A DNA stretch of 46,111 nt from a virus. The stretch spans positions 1 through 46,111 of the IMG/VR virus record IMGVR_UViG_3300021519_000018, one strand, 5' to 3'. The translations under genes and the position numbers were made by a program. The notes beneath the pieces were generated by a model, which saw only the letters and a list, made by a program, of their open reading frames with translations, was not told the origin of the DNA and did no database searches. Positions within the stretch are counted from its first letter, which is position 1; every line of letters begins with the position of its first letter. This document shows, piece after piece, positions 11,613 through 46,111 of the stretch.

Positions 11613-12452
11613 TTAGCTTGTCAGTGCGTTTGCCGCTGCTGCGGCTGCGCCCTTGTAGGCAACCCAGCACGAGTCAAGCAAAGCTGAAATCTCAGCGTGC
11701 TGTTCGTCTGGCACGGTTCCTGCAATAGGCTTTACGTCGATCTGGACGCTGTAGTACGGGCCGTCGGCGCGAGTCAGCGAAAGCTTGAATACGCAATCGG
11801 TGGGCTTGAGGCCCATAGTGCGCATACGGTTGACTGCGAGAGTGAACACGCCACGGCGCTGGTTGATCTCTGCGTTCTTGAACGTTACGAGCACTGGTGT
11901 GGACTTTTCTACGTCGTACGCCAGTAGCGTCTGAAGGTCGTCGCACGTTCCTGCGCCAAAGCCGCGGCGCTGGCAGTTGAGGCAGCTTCGCGTGTGGACG
12001 TCGTCTTGTGCGTCAGCGTCGATCCAGCCGTAGCCAGTCTTGCCGTCAGGTGAGGCACAGGACGCTTCGTGCGGAGTCTTCGGGTCGTACGGCATCCCGT
12101 AGTACGACTTTGACAGTTGCGAGCCGCGCGGCACGAGGAACACTGACTCGCGTTCTTCGGCGTCACCCTCTAAGACGATGATTCCCTTGGAACGGTTGAT
12201 CCGCAACGAAAGCGCCTGAAACGGCACCGAGTCTGAGAAACCGTCGTCGTAGTCGTCAATAGTTGCCAATTCGCCCGCTGGCGACAGTTCTGCCAACGAG
12301 CTGGTTGTGGCGCTTGCCGGAAATACCCCGTCTTGGTGGATTAGACCGGGGGGGGTTGGGAGCGACGGGATCTGAAGCGGGTCGATTGCTGGGTCGGTAG
12401 GCGGTGTAGTGGGAGAGGGCGAATGGGAGGTCTTGCTCTCGGACGTACTCAA
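11613..12452 (-). CDS. Cys-containing phage protein, unknown (possible ssDNA- or recombination-associated)
   Basis: 279 aa if begun at the TTG at 12452. The first 60 residues are Pro/Ser/Thr-rich and disordered and overlap the upstream gene in another frame for 197 bases. The folded part begins near residue 70. It contains a Cys group (HEASCASPDGK, SCLNCQRRGFGAGTC) that may bind zinc, then a beta-rich region (TPVLVTFKNAEI, PYYSVQIDVKPI) and an Ala-rich tail. It sits just upstream of the Cas4-like nuclease. No family was named with confidence; a start further in, at GTG of SDSVPF, is possible. Confidence 0.55.
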   Translation of the reverse strand: MSTSESKTSHSPSPTTPPTDPAIDPLQIPSLPTPPGLIHQDGVFPASATTSSLAELSPAGELATIDDYDDGFSDSVPFQALSLRINRSKGIIVLEGDAEERESVFLVPRGSQLSKSYYGMPYDPKTPHEASCASPDGKTGYGWIDADAQDDVHTRSCLNCQRRGFGAGTCDDLQTLLAYDVEKSTPVLVTFKNAEINQRRGVFTLAVNRMRTMGLKPTDCVFKLSLTRADGPYYSVQIDVKPIAGTVPDEQHAEISALLDSCWVAYKGAAAAAANALTS

Positions 12453-13332: not shown

Positions 13333-13550
13333 TGGAAAGGGCTCCTTTGCAGGGTGTTGTTGAAAGTTGTGCAAGTTGTGCAAATTGTGCAGGTGTCCCT
13401 TCCCTCGTAGTCCTAAGCGCGGAAAACGTAGTCTTGGAGTGTTGGTGTGTGTTTTTGTACAACTTTGTAATAAATAGTGCTATATAGCAGGTAAAAGACA
13501 GATTCTGCGATGTGCAATCGCGTGTGCAACGCTGCACAATCGTGTGCAAC
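13302..13550. promoter_or_regulatory. Divergent control region with clustered TGTGCAAC repeats
   Basis: About 250 bases between the leftward peptide gene and the rightward HNH gene hold about ten copies of an 8-base motif TTGTGCA(A) or GTGCAAY, in both orientations. They lie at about 13302, 13311, 13324, 13366, 13375, 13384, 13511, 13523, 13533 and 13542, with a related TTGTACAA at 13455. The copies flank an A/T-rich core at 13467-13500. The arrangement suits a multi-site operator or an iteron-type origin. No DnaA box (TTATCCACA) was seen. Confidence 0.5.
13478..13488. promoter_or_regulatory. Palindromic TATATA core, candidate -10
   Basis: GCTATATAGC at 13479-13488 is a perfect palindrome. 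With the preceding T it gives an extended -10 (TGCTATATA) on the plus strand, about 90 bases before the HNH start, and could also serve the minus strand. A TTGTAC at 13455-13460 is a poor-spacing -35 candidate (20 bases). Confidence 0.4.
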
Positions 13551-13578
13551 TTCCTACACAATCTACGGAAAAGCGACT

Positions 13579-14073
13579 ATGTCTGACGAAACTGGTTCTA
13601 GCGATTCGCGCGCGTCCTTGTCTGTCCGCGGGGATTACACCAGAAGGGGGAAGCGCCGCCGTCGGAAGGAGTTTGTGATTTTTTCGCGGGACGACTTCAG
13701 GTGCGTGTACTGCGGGAAGAGTTCTGTGGAAGACGGCGTCAAGTTGGAGGCGGACCACGTAGTGGCGCGGTCGGCTGGTGGTTTGGACACGGCTGGCAAT
13801 CTTGTGACCAGTTGCCGGGTTTGCAATCGTTCGAAGTTTGACGAGGAGCTGGCACTGGATACGCGTGACCGGCTGCTGTTGCTGGCGGCAACGCGCAACC
13901 GGTCACGCAGGATCTCAGACGATATGCCAGTGGATCTGGGACGTAGTCCCCAAGCTCAGGCGATCACGAAGTCCCAAGAAACCTTGTCGGGCAGCGGGCA
14001 GCCGGAGTCTGGGAGTATCACCGGCGAGTCTGTGATTGCGTCTGAGAAACCGTCGTCTGCTGGGTCGTCGTGA
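13579..14073 (+). CDS. HNH endonuclease
   Basis: 164 aa from the ATG at 13579 (open frame to 13510). N-terminal basic stretch RRGKRRRRK. The HNH core has Cys42 and Cys45 (CVYCGK), Asp59-His60 (LEADHVVARSAGG), Asn74, Cys79, Cys82-Asn83 and Lys86 (CRVCNRSK), so it is a zinc-ribbon-stabilised HNH nuclease. The C-terminal 70 residues are Ser/Gly-rich. It is the only rightward gene within the leftward block and converges on, and overlaps by 118 bases, the gene at 13956-14396. It could be a free-standing mobile (homing-type) nuclease or a nuclease acting at the adjacent repeats. Confidence 0.8.
   Translation: MSDETGSSDSRASLSVRGDYTRRGKRRRRKEFVIFSRDDFRCVYCGKSSVEDGVKLEADHVVARSAGGLDTAGNLVTSCRVCNRSKFDEELALDTRDRLLLLAATRNRSRRISDDMPVDLGRSPQAQAITKSQETLSGSGQPESGSITGESVIASEKPSSAGSS
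13615..13628 (+). repeat. 14-base dispersed repeat, copy 2
   Basis: TCCTTGTCTGTCCG within codons 13-17 of the HNH gene; shares GCG to the left with copy 1. Confidence 0.6.
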
Positions 14074-14396: not shown

Positions 14397-14686
14397 TAGA
14401 AGAGCCTCACTGGCGGGTTTTCGCGCGGGGCTTCCGGGATCTCGCCGTGGGCCGCGCTTTTGTTGATGCCGCCCCAGATCAGACACGCAGAGATTGCCCT
14501 GATGTCGATTTCTGTGAGCGGCCTTGTTGTCGCTTCTGTTTCCTCGTCTTCGTAGGTCATTTCCATTGTGTTGGCGTTCACTGTCAGCGTTGGGGATACC
14601 AACGTGTCGCCGCTCTGGTCAAACGCGTTGTAGAGGTCGTCCGGCATTGTGATGATGATTGTGAGTGCCGGTGGTGTGTCGCTCAT
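14396..14686 (-). CDS. Unknown small beta-rich protein
   Basis: 96 aa, ATG start in an ATGA overlap. The N-terminal half has alternating hydrophobic strands (ALTIIITMPDDLYNAF, SPTLTVNANTMEMTY) and is acidic; a helix DIRAISACLIWGGINKSA follows. No catalytic motif. Sits downstream of the MoxR-VWA genes in the same overlapping operon. Confidence 0.55.
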   Translation of the reverse strand: MSDTPPALTIIITMPDDLYNAFDQSGDTLVSPTLTVNANTMEMTYEDEETEATTRPLTEIDIRAISACLIWGGINKSAAHGEIPEAPRENPPVRLF

Positions 14687-14907
14687 TTGTGGCTCCTTGC
14701 GCGCTTTACGCCGCGGAAGTTGGTTTTTACGTCGGCAGCTGTTTGGGTCGTGGGTTCGCGCGGCTCCCACAAGACAAGGTCTTTGAGTTGGAAGTCGCTT
14801 TTCTTAGCCCCGTATTTGACGGTGGCGAGTTTGCGTCCGACGCGCGTTACGATGCCGAAGTGAAACGCGCCTTCGTGTAGGAACTTGACTTGCTGGCCGA
14901 TTTTCAC
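14683..14907 (-). CDS. Small SH3/KOW-like basic protein
   Basis: 74 aa from a GTG at 14907, two bases after the stop of the 28-aa membrane peptide, with AGGA upstream; an ATG at 14946 in frame is less likely because it overlaps that peptide. The sequence has small beta-barrel character: VKIGQQVKFLHEGAFHFGIVTRV, LATVKYGAKKSDFQL, then a basic tail. This resembles SH3-like or KOW-like domains that bind nucleic acid or protein. No specific family assigned. Confidence 0.5.
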   Translation of the reverse strand: MKIGQQVKFLHEGAFHFGIVTRVGRKLATVKYGAKKSDFQLKDLVLWEPREPTTQTAADVKTNFRGVKRARSHK

Positions 14908-14909
14908 GG

Positions 14910-14996
14910 TTACTTGTTCCTGTCGTTTGCTTGCCGCCAGTACCATCCGATTATGAGCGCGGCAATGACTGTGCTGAACAGGTCAGCCAGTTTCAT
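14910..14996 (-). CDS. 28-residue single-span membrane peptide coupled to the VWA gene
   Basis: ATG start in an ATGA overlap with the VWA stop, the tightest sort of translational coupling. The peptide has a short N-terminal segment (MKLADLF), one hydrophobic span (STVIAALIIGWYW) and a polar, basic tail (RQANDRNK). Its stop lies two bases before the next start. The coupling suggests it acts with the MoxR-VWA pair, for example by bringing it to the membrane. Confidence 0.55.
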   Translation of the reverse strand: MKLADLFSTVIAALIIGWYWRQANDRNK

Positions 14997-16366
14997 GTTC
15001 TTGTCGCGGTCTCGGCGTTTAGCTTTTGGAACTGGTACATAGATTCAATGGTGGTGATCTTCTTAGCTTTTACGATCTGTCGGCATTCTTCTGTGAGTCG
15101 GCGTGACGACTGATCGTTGATTCCGGTTACGTGCCCGTCGCAGATCCAGACGCGTGGCTCTTGCTGCTTGCCGAGCCAAGCAAGTGCTGGCCCGTCGCAA
15201 CCGTTGCCGCCGTACTCTGCTTGCAGGTCTTCGGGTGCTGCGCGCTTGCCCTTCTTGGCGACGATGTGCAGGTACCCTTGGTAGGAACTAGAGCAGTAGG
15301 TTGCAATGGTTACTCCGGGTGAGTTCTCCATGATGAAGGTGATGTCTTCGTCAGAGAGACTCATTGAGCCTGAGCAGTCGATGAGTACAGCGCCAGCGTT
15401 CTTGTGTCGGCGCTTTGAACCAAATACGTGACCGTCTGTGCAGAACCTGTCGGGGCGCTTGATAAACGCGCCTTCGTCCGACAGTTTCCAGTGATTACGT
15501 CTGGTCTTTGACGCGAGTGGCAGTGACAGCGGTGGCTCGATTATGAGCATTTGGCACCACTCGGTGTCTTCCTCGTCGCCGTATTCGTCGGTGTCGTCTG
15601 GTAGCTCGGCTGCTCTGTCGTACACAAACTCTTTGCCGTCTTCCTCGTTTAGGTGACGGCTGATCCTTGCCCAAACTTCTTTGCTGACTCTTTCTGTTTC
15701 GCGCTGGTCTCCGCGAGCGCAGAGCCATTCGTCAGTCGGTTCTGTTTCGCAGAGTTCGCTTGCAACGATCATGTACGCTTGGTGCAGCGCTTGCCGGTAC
15801 TTACGGCGTTGCGTTGCGTTTGGGTCAGTGTCGCTTGGTTCGTGGTGGTGCCAGTAGTCCCAGTATGTTGTTCCGTCTAGGCCGTTGCCTCCGACTACTG
15901 ACTTTGCGATTGTGGTGAAGGCAGATACGAGGTCGTTCTGGTCTTCGTAGAACTCAAGCGCTCCTTTTGGGAGCCGTGGTGGCGGAACGAACGTTGCTGC
16001 CTGTGAGACGTCCGTAACTGTTTCTGTGTCCCACGAGTCGTGGTATTCGTCTCGTACGCCGTGGTCGCTTACGGTGTCGATTGCGTCGAGTAGCCCGCTG
16101 ATTCTTGCTGCGTCCACTGCGTCAACGATTTCCAGTGGAATGGTTGAGGTCGCCGAGAACTCGGCAGTGGTTTCGTGACCGCACGCGACGGTCAGGTTTG
16201 CGATTGACCTCCTGTACTGCGACTGGGCCGACAGGTCAGTAGGTGCTGCGACGACGCGACGGGTGAAGTCTGTTGCTTCGCGCGTTGAGTCTGTTGCTTT
16301 CCACTCGGCGTTGTCTCCGCCAATCTGTGGACGCTTGAAGGTGTTCGGGAGTACTGGGAAACCCAT
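14993..16366 (-). CDS. VWA-domain protein, partner of MoxR-type ATPase (CobT/NorD-like)
   Basis: 457 aa, ATG start with AGGAG six bases upstream; that AGGAG overlaps the MoxR stop. The N-terminal 320 residues are mostly helical and acidic with no recognised domain. The C-terminal domain is von Willebrand factor A: strand GAVLID with MIDAS motif DCSGSMS (Asp330, Ser332, Ser334), a GGNGCDGP loop near 386-393 in place of the usual Thr motif, and the third metal ligand Asp410 in WICDGHVTG. In MoxR-VWA pairs (CobS/CobT, NorQ/NorD, RavA/ViaA) the VWA protein gives the ATPase its target. No chelatase or nitric-oxide-reductase gene is present, so the target is unknown. Confidence 0.8.
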   Translation of the reverse strand: MGFPVLPNTFKRPQIGGDNAEWKATDSTREATDFTRRVVAAPTDLSAQSQYRRSIANLTVACGHETTAEFSATSTIPLEIVDAVDAARISGLLDAIDTVSDHGVRDEYHDSWDTETVTDVSQAATFVPPPRLPKGALEFYEDQNDLVSAFTTIAKSVVGGNGLDGTTYWDYWHHHEPSDTDPNATQRRKYRQALHQAYMIVASELCETEPTDEWLCARGDQRETERVSKEVWARISRHLNEEDGKEFVYDRAAELPDDTDEYGDEEDTEWCQMLIIEPPLSLPLASKTRRNHWKLSDEGAFIKRPDRFCTDGHVFGSKRRHKNAGAVLIDCSGSMSLSDEDITFIMENSPGVTIATYCSSSYQGYLHIVAKKGKRAAPEDLQAEYGGNGCDGPALAWLGKQQEPRVWICDGHVTGINDQSSRRLTEECRQIVKAKKITTIESMYQFQKLNAETATRT

Positions 16367-16375
16367 ACTTGGCTC

Positions 16376-17071
16376 CTAGAGTCGGCTCTGCAGTTCGTAC
16401 GCGTTGATGATGTCTTGCGCGCGCTCTCCGAATACGGCTACGCACGCTGACACGACGTCCATCTTGCTGCGCGCGTCGGCGAACGCGAACCACTTGCGTA
16501 CCGAAGTTCTGGTGCGGGGGTTCTCCGACGACGTTGCCTCGTCGGCAATCTTGCGAAGGTCTTCTGGCAGTGCTTCCAGCGCCGCTGGGTGTGGGCGCGT
16601 GATCTTGATGATTGCGTCCATGCGGTCAATGAGTGCCTCCGGCAGGTCTGACTCGTTACCGTTCATCGTGATAACGAAGTTCGTGCTCGGCTGTGGCTTG
16701 ACTGTCTCACCGTTCGGCAGTGTGAGCTGCGCGCTTGGCTGGTCGTCAAGGATTGCGTAGCAGATTGAGTGGCAGTCTCCGCTCGCCCGGTCCAGCTCAT
16801 TGAGGACGTAGCGCGCGCCGTCGAGCCAGCTACGGATAGCCGGTCCGTGCATCCACTTGTAGCTGCCCTCGGTCATAATGTAGTGGCCGCGCAGCTCTGA
16901 GGCGGGGGTCTCTTCAGTGAGGGTGTTGGTGTACATGGGCTGATCGGGGGTCAGGTTGTAGTGCATTGCTGCGTACGTCTTGCCGGTGCCCGGAGGTCCG
17001 TACAACAGAACGCGTCGAAGGTTGCCTACGCACTTCTCGGCGAGTTCCCACTGGTCAATCGTGATTGCCAT
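16376..17071 (-). CDS. MoxR-type AAA+ ATPase (CobS/NorQ-like)
   Basis: 231 aa from the ATG at 17071, with GGAG 8 bases upstream; an ATG at 17107 is an alternative. Walker A GPPGTGKT is at 25-32. The Walker B position reads YVLNELDRA, with Asn91-Glu92 where Asp-Glu is usual. Sensor 1 is ITMNG (Thr135, Asn137), and the arginine finger is Arg150 in LIDRMD. The length is that of a compact single AAA_5 core with a short lid (SVRKWFAFADARS). Such ATPases form hexamers that remodel or activate other proteins. It lies 9 bases upstream of the VWA gene, forming a two-gene chaperone module. Confidence 0.8.
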   Translation of the reverse strand: MAITIDQWELAEKCVGNLRRVLLYGPPGTGKTYAAMHYNLTPDQPMYTNTLTEETPASELRGHYIMTEGSYKWMHGPAIRSWLDGARYVLNELDRASGDCHSICYAILDDQPSAQLTLPNGETVKPQPSTNFVITMNGNESDLPEALIDRMDAIIKITRPHPAALEALPEDLRKIADEATSSENPRTRTSVRKWFAFADARSKMDVVSACVAVFGERAQDIINAYELQSRL

Positions 17072-17128
17072 TTCCGTTGCTCCGTCGGTTGAGTGTGTCA
17101 GTCTCATAGAAACTGAGAGGCTGTGTTG

Positions 17129-21016: not shown

Positions 21017-21352
21017 CTACGCTGCCTTCGGGGCTGTGTAGCCGGAGGACTGCGTAGAGAGGTCGAAGTAGACGTCGTCTCCGAACTCGTGGCCTGCCGT
21101 CCGGAGCGCGTTGAGCGTGTTGATGGGGAGTTCGATCCCGACTGCTTCGAGGTCAGCGCGCATCGACGACACGTTCTCGGCCAAACGGAAGGGGTACGTG
21201 GCCGGGAACTCGTGGAGCGGCCGAGGATCGTGCTTCTCGGGGTCGGCGTCTACCGGCTGGGCACTGAACACGTCGGCCCAGTAGCCGTTTAGGGGCCGGT
21301 CGAAGCCAAAGTTCACAATGACGTCTGAGTACTGCACGGTGATGCGGGACAC
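21017..21352 (-). CDS. Unknown protein with hairpin leader L1
   Basis: 111 aa from the GTG at 21352, with AAAGGAG seven bases before it. Beta-rich start (SRITVQYSDVIVNFGFD), then YWADVFSAQPVDADPEKHDPR, a helix LAENVSSMRADLEAVGI, and a polar C-terminus. No family recognised. Its leader closely matches that of the gene at 22082, so the two genes are probably co-regulated. Confidence 0.55.
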   Translation of the reverse strand: MSRITVQYSDVIVNFGFDRPLNGYWADVFSAQPVDADPEKHDPRPLHEFPATYPFRLAENVSSMRADLEAVGIELPINTLNALRTAGHEFGDDVYFDLSTQSSGYTAPKAA

Positions 21353-21420
21353 GGTGTTGCTCCTTTGACGTTGGTGTAAGGCTTGAAATCTCCTAACCAC
21401 ACACGGTGTTTGTGTGGTAC
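21353..21420 (-). promoter_or_regulatory. Hairpin leader L1
   Basis: Minus-strand order: hairpin (ACCACACA / TGTGTGGT, 8-bp stem at 21396-21418, 7-base loop), TTTCAAG, CTTACACCAAC, ribosome binding site AAAGGAG, GTG. Leader L2 at 22083-22148 follows the same order with about four bases in five the same, and L3 at 23190-23254 keeps the hairpin and loop with a changed base pair. Confidence 0.6.
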
Positions 21421-21792
21421 TCAGTAAACAATTCGTACTGGGACGCCCGCTGCTCGACACTGTGAGATGCAGTGGCCGGTGCCTCGGGACTTGCCGTCCC
21501 AAAATGCGATAGCCCAGTCAGGCGCGCCTTCCTTGACCATGCGCGTGTTGCGCTTGAAACCGGCGCTGCGTCCTTCCACGTCCCAGTTCGCCGTGTACAC
21601 GGTGAGCGAGGGCATGAGGCGGCGTTCGGCGTGCCAGTCGCGCACTAGTTCGTCTACTCCGCGTGCGCACCCCACGACTACGTGTGGCTTGTAGTCGTTC
21701 GTGTCGCAGTGGTAGTAGAAGGCGGACAGTTGCCTGTGGACCTTCTCTGCGTCACTCCAATCGCGCATACCGGTGATGAGTAGCGTCTTCAT
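21421..21792 (-). CDS. SLOG-superfamily YspA/DUF2493-like protein
   Basis: 123 aa from the ATG at 21792. Rossmann-like SLOG signatures: TLLITGMRDWSD at the N-terminus, VVVGCARGVDELVRDWH, YTANWDVEGRSAGFKRNTRMV, and WAIAFWDGKSRGTGH, which match the order of motifs in the YspA/DUF2493 family. SLOG proteins bind nucleotide-derived ligands and often act in stress or conflict signalling. Its stop abuts hairpin leader L1. Together with the adjacent DUF4326-like gene it forms a pair seen in many phage accessory regions. Confidence 0.75.
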   Translation of the reverse strand: MKTLLITGMRDWSDAEKVHRQLSAFYYHCDTNDYKPHVVVGCARGVDELVRDWHAERRLMPSLTVYTANWDVEGRSAGFKRNTRMVKEGAPDWAIAFWDGKSRGTGHCISQCRAAGVPVRIVY

Positions 21793-21794
21793 GG

Positions 21795-22082
21795 CTAGAA
21801 AGCCTCCTTCGGGAGAAGCCGCATCCAGTCCACAGCCTTTTCGATAACGCGCGCGTGGCAGGTGGCAGAGTTCGGCCTGCAGCCCGGGCACACCAGCACG
21901 AACTCGCGCTCTGCATTAGCGATCTCACGCAGGTACGCGAGCGCAGGGCCACCAGACTGGATCTCGGTCCACAGCCACGCGCGATACCTCGGGATGGTGG
22001 CACCCGGGTTTCCCTTCACAGCGGGAAAGGGGTTACCAAGCGGTGACGGACGACCAACTGGGTAATGCGGCAAGGTAGTCAC
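21795..22082 (-). CDS. DUF4326-like protein
   Basis: 95 aa from a GTG at 22082 with AAAGGAG seven bases upstream. Motif order fits DUF4326: HYPVGRPSPLGNPF near the N-terminus, IPRYRAWLW helix, then LVCPGCRPNSATCHARVIE with the Cys/His cluster likely to bind metal. Function of the family is not established; a nucleotide-linked role is often supposed because it is found next to SLOG-type genes, as here. Confidence 0.6.
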   Translation of the reverse strand: MTTLPHYPVGRPSPLGNPFPAVKGNPGATIPRYRAWLWTEIQSGGPALAYLREIANAEREFVLVCPGCRPNSATCHARVIEKAVDWMRLLPKEAF

Positions 22083-22148
22083 GGTGTTGCTCCTTTGCTG
22101 TTGGTGTAACGATTGAAAGCTTCTGACCACACACGCTTTTAGTGTGGT
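22083..22148 (-). promoter_or_regulatory. Hairpin leader L2
   Basis: Minus-strand order: hairpin (ACCACAC / GTGTGGT, 7-bp stem at 22126-22148, 9-base loop), TTTCAAT, GTTACACCAAC, AAAGGAG, GTG. Same order as L1. It lies downstream of the strong hairpin at 22200-22228, which suggests that transcription restarts here. Confidence 0.6.
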
Positions 22149-22199
22149 ACGCCGTAGACGTTCGTTTCTGATCTACCACCCCGGCGCTCCCCCGGGGTT

Positions 22200-45845: not shown

Positions 45846-46111
45846 CCTTACACAACAGATCCAAGCGTACCTGAAGCGAAAGGGAAGCCCACTTGCGGCG
45901 TTCGCGGGCGACTTTGTGCGCACTGGGCAGAAGTACGGGCTTGACCCGCGCTTTCTGGTTGCGATCTCGGGAGCAGAGACCTCGTTCGCTACTGCGGGGT
46001 CGAAGCTTGCAAACCCGTTTGGGTACAACTCTGCCCGCCACTATTCGGGGCCGCGCGAAGTTCTGGACCTGTTGGGGCGCGACCTTGCGCGCACCGGCAG
46101 CGGTGCCCTGT
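45838..46111 (+). CDS. Virion-associated lysin, N-terminal part; continues at 31
   Basis: GTG start overlapping the previous stop by 8 bases (GTGGCTGA). The first 91 codons lie here; the protein continues in frame at base 31 across the repeat. This part is the start of a glucosaminidase (GH73-like) or lytic-transglycosylase-like domain: AFAGDFVRTGQKYGLDPRF, then VAISGAETSF with Glu as likely catalytic acid, and KLANPFGYN. Together with the NlpC/P60 domain it makes a two-enzyme lysin. Partial only because the contig ends here. Confidence 0.85.
   Translation, partial: MADLTQQIQAYLKRKGSPLAAFAGDFVRTGQKYGLDPRFLVAISGAETSFATAGSKLANPFGYNSARHYSGPREVLDLLGRDLARTGSGAL
45986..46111. repeat. Terminal direct repeat, right copy
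   Basis: Identical to 29-154. With the fold-back removed and one copy dropped, the circle is 45957 bases. Bases 45961-45992, which include its first seven bases, are the source of the fold-back at the left end. Confidence 0.9.

Follow-up and report, generated by a model that had tools for sequence, protein, structure and literature searches.

The stretch of viral DNA analysed here, 46,111 nt long and called the window in the following, is a complete genome, circular or terminally redundant and of ~45,957 bp, because a 126-bp direct repeat occupies both of its ends (29-154 and 45986-46111). Its first 35 nt repeat 45958-45992 in inverted orientation, probably as a fold-back assembly artefact. 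On the minus strand, three genes follow one another from 17071 to 14910 in the order MoxR, VWA and membrane peptide, and all three frames lie where the initial annotation had placed them. The locus comprises the following features:

16376..17071, minus strand: MoxR-type AAA+ ATPase, 231 aa (AAA_5, 8.7e-17; phrog_16448 ATPase, 3.6e-29)
14993..16366, minus strand: VWA partner protein, 457 aa (phrog_33218, 3.5e-23; adjacency to MoxR; invariant residues)
16037..16279, minus strand: degenerate metallopeptidase-like N-terminal domain, residues ~30-110 of the VWA protein (alignment and profile match)
14996..15394, minus strand: VWA (MIDAS) domain, residues 325-457 (DxSGSM, predicted alpha/beta fold, match of the homologue L143 to NorD)
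14910..14996, minus strand: putative single-span membrane peptide, 28 aa, MKLADLFSTVIAALIIGWYWRQANDRNK (sequence; peptides in relatives)
14993..14996, minus strand: ATGA overlap of the VWA stop and the peptide start (sequence; same in L125/L131, L132 and L133/L137)
14683..14907, minus strand: next downstream gene, 74-aa SH3/KOW-like protein, GTG at 14905-14907 (similar frame directly after the peptide in L135/L141)

The structural genes of the window (terminase, portal, major head, tail) are located on the plus strand, and the module is flanked on the minus strand by genes for SSB, a Cas4-like exonuclease and primases. The SH3/KOW-like gene keeps its synteny in the nearest relative of the window and is not considered a component of the MoxR-VWA machine. 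Besides, an HNH endonuclease frame (13510-14073, plus strand; PF01844, 5.1e-10) interrupts the minus-strand early block. A 279-aa gene of no assigned function (11613-12452, minus strand) is followed 3 nt on by a 21-aa, very hydrophobic frame, MVVAVEALILVACLIFIIASW, and an 80-bp repeat (21350-21429 and 22080-22159; 84% identity, 730 bp apart) encloses a CCACAC...GTGTGG hairpin and is perhaps a duplicated regulatory element.

Judged by its sequence, the ATPase is a MoxR-clade AAA+ protein with all catalytic signatures. The AAA_5 match reaches 61.9 bits against a cut-off of 22, the Walker A motif GPPGTGKT lies at residues 25-32, and Walker A, E92/D94, N137, R150 and R188/R192 do not vary among 16 homologues. 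This agrees with the initial annotation, which had already named the ATPase type, the Walker A motif and Arg150 as arginine finger; the invariance of R150 is consistent with the latter role. The open frame also permits an alternative upstream ATG at 17107. A sequence search of the PDB returned midasin, NorQ and CbbQ as solved relatives, the best single-ring ones being NorQ (1.3e-10) and a CbbQ-type protein (3.5e-8). These three stand for the branch of MoxR proteins whose members cooperate with VWA or MIDAS domains, and the label "chaperone" for the pair would follow from such family knowledge. On a near-identical second contig (L003, 8001-8693), the ATPase gene differs from 16376-17071 of the window at 10 of 696 positions, all of them synonymous; the VWA protein of this contig is 91% identical over the part covered, i.e. 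~9% amino-acid change next to an unchanged ATPase.

The partner gene starts 9 nt after the MoxR stop and its product carries the MIDAS motif DCSGSM at residues 330-335, in agreement with the DxSxS MIDAS of the initial annotation. In alignments of first 14 and later 56 homologues, D-x-S-G-S-M is invariant and the blocks GGNxxDGPALxWL and WxxDG are conserved; over all 56, the invariant positions are D330, S332, G333, S334, M335, N388, D391, W397, W407 and D410. The match to phrog_33218, a family of no assigned function, covers the C-terminal half. No convincing Pfam family, VWA included, was found for the window protein or its 56 homologues, and tblastn against the annotated phage collection gave no match at E 1e-3. 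Of the two profile matches that the initial annotation had proposed to look for, the MoxR part was thus recovered with AAA_5, and the VWA/CobT part found no Pfam counterpart. Structure prediction with AlphaFold gave a compact alpha/beta domain for residues 325-457 (pLDDT mostly >90), with the strand and helix order of a short VWA domain. Since the Foldseek search with the window model by itself returned nothing significant, we folded the homologue L143 (mean pLDDT 88), for which NorD of the NorQD complex occupies the top three PDB hits with probabilities of 0.97, 0.92 and 0.77 at weak E-values of 0.012-0.05. A PDB profile search with the 56 homologues returned designed helical repeats and coiled coils only and no VWA. 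The predicted fold is no proof by itself; motif, gene partner and NorD match together make the VWA assignment well supported.

The N-terminal half of this protein holds a feature that the initial annotation, correct about the pair itself, had missed. In most relatives, the N-terminal domain displays HELGH, HELMH or HELAH followed by E(E/D)xRI, and it matches the HExxH domain of the CobT-like "peptidase" proteins of cyanophage, Ochrobactrum and Gordonia phages (hhalign probability 96, E 4.7e-9); a weaker profile match to the same proteins extends over the segment preceding the VWA domain. The window protein reads IANLT in place of HExxH and DAARI in place of E(E/D)xRI. Because the HExxH motif is lost in this copy, its N-terminus is probably a dead protease that was kept as a scaffold. 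The zinc motif is also gone in the nearest relative L141 and in several low-GC relatives and is intact in most others; therefore the domain persists although its zinc site is dispensable. By the same token, the window copy would remodel its client and not cut it. That some members have lost the motif sets remodelling apart from proteolysis and speaks against a common role of the family in cleavage.

The pair is not restricted to the window. Alignment of the window ATPase with annotated phage homologues led to 17 good MoxR homologues in IMG/VR, and a scan of the same resource for the VWA protein yielded hundreds of relatives, from which 70 distinct VWA loci were analysed. MoxR adjoins VWA in 63 of these 70 loci, and some of the remainder start inside the module. 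The adjacency is thus more than chance, and the pair forms a family carried by phages. Because broad scans returned mainly an abundant low-GC clade, a DNA pattern specific for WLxxQxxPRxWxCDG had to be used to reach the high-GC relatives. Among 84,980 species genomes of bacteria and archaea, the first family DNA pattern had no match; the second one found a single Acidimicrobiia MAG contig with a MoxR-VWA pair that is without a peptide, its other match being spurious. The surroundings of the module differ between lineages: genes for an exonuclease and a single-strand annealing protein lie downstream in the low-GC clade, and the module is located directly upstream of the terminase genes in the lineage of L060, L061, L136, L142, L143 and L145. 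In more than 40 low-GC loci (e.g. L040, 5820-8041), MoxR-VWA is followed by a ~81-aa protein, a metallophosphoesterase-type exonuclease (phrog_284) and a Rad52-like annealing protein.

The initial annotation had noted that an ATGA joins the VWA stop to the 28-aa membrane peptide, which is what we see at 14993-14996. It had also named an absence of the peptide or of this coupling from related genomes as the observation that would speak against it; this was not borne out, several of the high-GC relatives keeping both. A single-span peptide of 28-48 aa abuts the VWA stop in 9 of 17 distinct loci with a GC content of at least 0.5, the window included, and those of the relatives measure 34-48 aa. 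Shuffled downstream sequence is expected to give 0.033 such peptides in these 17 loci against the 9 observed, and among 131 control genes from these loci only 7 have an abutting short hydrophobic frame (Fisher p=2.6e-6), although the related loci are not independent and the p-values for enrichment overstate significance. The -3 overlap of the ATGA is kept in three other lineages (L125/L131, L132, L133/L137); elsewhere the spacing to the VWA stop is -6 (L061, L136), -16 (L035), +5 (L060, L134) or +10 (L034). Additional single-span peptides of 28-43 aa are encoded within or next to the operon, either between MoxR and VWA (L060, L061, L136) or just upstream of MoxR (L142, L146). The culturable Gordonia phage DalanDe has an annotated 69-aa membrane protein (gene 67; L006, 3569-3778) directly upstream of its AAA-ATPase/CobT-like pair.

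Stronger evidence for a real gene than this enrichment comes from selection. Two pairs of close peptides, L061 and L136 (dN 0.022, dS 0.323) and L060 and L134 (dN 0.032, dS 0.511), both have a dN/dS of ~0.06 and are under strong purifying selection. Between the window and L141, no strong purifying selection is visible (dN 0.53, dS 0.99 over 22 codons). This nearest relative (G001/L141, MoxR 79% identical) encodes a peptide of 48% identity in the corresponding position (E 6.3e-4). In L135/L141 the peptide has no ATG, GTG or TTG start and only a CTG, which overlaps the VWA stop as CTGA; this could be a natural re-initiation at CTG or a decaying start.

The search for a membrane-spanning frame after the VWA gene was positive for some lineages only. 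No convincing peptide follows VWA in the large low-GC clade, where the one abutting frame of this kind, in L073, was judged spurious, and the peptide is likewise missing from L018, L022-L026 and L044/L147, i.e. from most of the family together with that clade. An interim view that the peptide is absent in relatives had been based on the low-GC clade and was overturned by the high-GC loci. On the VWA tree, at least five changes are needed to explain the presence of the peptide. In their commonest form, the peptides begin with the pattern M-x-R/K-x-L/V-x-D-x-h-h-G, which leads into a hydrophobic span and then a charged tail, often rich in proline. As the lineages share this loose pattern only, the peptides may not all be homologous. 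Nevertheless, the data support that the membrane peptide is a real gene tied to the pair, selected in relatives, and no chance frame.

Our preferred explanation, to which we would give an even chance, is that the phage encodes a MoxR-VWA machine for remodelling that comes with its own membrane anchor. In NorQD, a finger of the VWA partner reaches into the hexamer pore of the ATPase, and the proposal is that the partner is twisted against its client when ATP is hydrolysed (PMC13036017). By analogy with NorQD, CbbQO and midasin, the phage ATPase would form a hexamer with a finger of the VWA protein in its pore; ATP hydrolysis may then twist or pull the VWA protein against the client that its N-terminal domain and MIDAS hold, and the client would thereby be opened or dismantled, in the window copy by remodelling without cutting. 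Synthesised in step with the VWA protein, the peptide would bind or regulate it and put the complex at the host inner membrane; it is from gene order and overlap only that we infer this binding. Most simply, the peptide would be a membrane anchor or a regulator of the VWA protein. For the window module, a role early or midway in infection is more probable than one in virion assembly because the module sits in a minus-strand block of replication and recombination genes (SSB, Cas4-like exonuclease, primase), although this context is not universal, as the L060 lineage with its module beside the terminase genes demonstrates. A more specific version, in which the peptide is the dedicated membrane adaptor of a peptidase-decayed MoxR-VWA remodeller that dismantles or rearranges one particular complex of the host inner membrane in the course of infection, strikes us as rather unlikely in this full form. 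If true, such a membrane-docked adaptor machine would be a new mechanism of host takeover.

The pair could instead be a virion-assembly chaperone that folds or processes structural proteins, with the peptide as an unrelated neighbour or as a means to bring assembly to the membrane. Phage MoxR-VWA pairs have been read in this way, since Iyer et al. proposed an assembly role for the MoxR-vWA-metallopeptidase pairs of jumbo phages (PMC7824862), and such a role is reported for the tail of the Acidianus two-tailed virus. The position upstream of terminase genes in the L060 lineage would fit as well. However, the window module lies in the minus-strand replication block away from the plus-strand structural genes, the module of the low-GC relatives adjoins exonuclease and annealing protein genes, and the loss of the zinc motif makes processing by cleavage unlikely. 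We therefore consider an assembly function unlikely, if quite conceivable.

Distinctly unlikely in our opinion is an anti-host or superinfection function, along the lines that the initial annotation had suggested, in which the machine at its anchor would take down or obstruct a complex in the host membrane or the entry of a rival phage. The membrane peptides selected next to the pair and the activity of the cellular RavA-ViaA and NorQD on membrane complexes (PMC3893208, PMC9489729, PMC13036017) would agree with it. On the other hand, neither a client gene nor a known exclusion protein was seen nearby, and there is no match to a defence family beyond P-loop similarity: in PADLOC, the ATPase matched at P-loop stretches only (IetA 8.9e-6, residues 9-46) and the VWA protein not at all.

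Short membrane genes are common in phages, and the peptide might be an independent small membrane gene, e.g. an accessory for lysis or morphogenesis, that lies downstream by chance of a cytosolic core pair. Its absence from most of the family and the 7 of 131 other genes in these loci with abutting short hydrophobic frames point in this direction. The enrichment after VWA is far above both control and shuffle, though, the exact overlap is kept in several lineages, and some of these have extra peptides inside the operon, which renders a chance neighbourhood improbable. A cobaltochelatase helper (CobST), by which the pair together with a host CobN would insert cobalt and raise the cobalamin supply, is very improbable in spite of a published cobST reading of phage pairs (PMC8651126) and of CobS/CobT annotations of related phage genes, because neither CobN nor a ribonucleotide reductase large chain that would profit is encoded in the window or nine relatives, in the PDB the ATPase is related to midasin, NorQ and CbbQ, and none of the 56 homologues has a CobT Pfam match. 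The same two absences bear out the initial annotation, which had found no client for metal insertion encoded in the window.

In comparison with known systems, the membrane-anchored remodelling machine that we favour belongs to a widespread class. MoxR-VWA pairs are frequent in phages and often labelled as vitamin B12 genes. In jumbo phages, the pair occurs with a fused metallopeptidase (Iyer et al., 2021; PMC7824862). Tailed viruses are described to carry it as cobST for cobalamin, according to Liu et al. (2021; PMC8651126), and PMC7911831 and PMC2147016 treat MoxR-VWA as a chaperone-adaptor pair acting on metalloproteins or with no assigned role. The pairs of jumbo phages, cyanophage, Ochrobactrum and Gordonia phages resemble the window in having adjacent MoxR and VWA genes, and jumbo-phage-type pairs share the homologous N-terminal domain, whose HExxH...E(D/E)xR is intact there and lost in the window. 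In contrast to these jumbo-phage-type CobS/peptidase pairs, the window ATPase is shorter (231 aa), the VWA protein has 457 aa instead of ~600-710, and an overlapping membrane peptide gene is present. Viral cobST pairs likewise have AAA+ and vWA-MIDAS genes side by side, and that of the halovirus Hardycor1 also lies in a replication/accessory region; an abutting membrane peptide is not mentioned for them in the accessible parts of the two sources (PMC8651126, PMC7911831).

Among cellular systems, NorQ/NorD and CbbQ/CbbO provide the closest single-ring ATPases, and the PDB fold that best matches the homologue L143 is NorD, at an E-value of only 0.012; unlike in these systems, there is no nitric oxide reductase or Rubisco gene among the annotated window proteins. 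RavA/ViaA is also a MoxR-VWA pair and is reported to interact with membrane complexes, a likeness at the class level only, and in contrast to NorQ and CbbQ it does not appear among the proteins that the window ATPase matched by sequence in the PDB at E 1e-3. The open-access literature searched reports no client for phage MoxR-VWA pairs, and the pairs themselves are published there while no report of an overlapped membrane peptide was found, in line with the initial annotation, which had suspected the novelty in the arrangement with the peptide. A selected peptide that is tied to the pair by overlap in several lineages offers a testable handle, as it hints at the site of action and can serve as a bait for the client. 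Compared with all of these systems, the membrane peptide, kept during evolution, seems to be an addition not described before, which suggests that the machine works at the host membrane.
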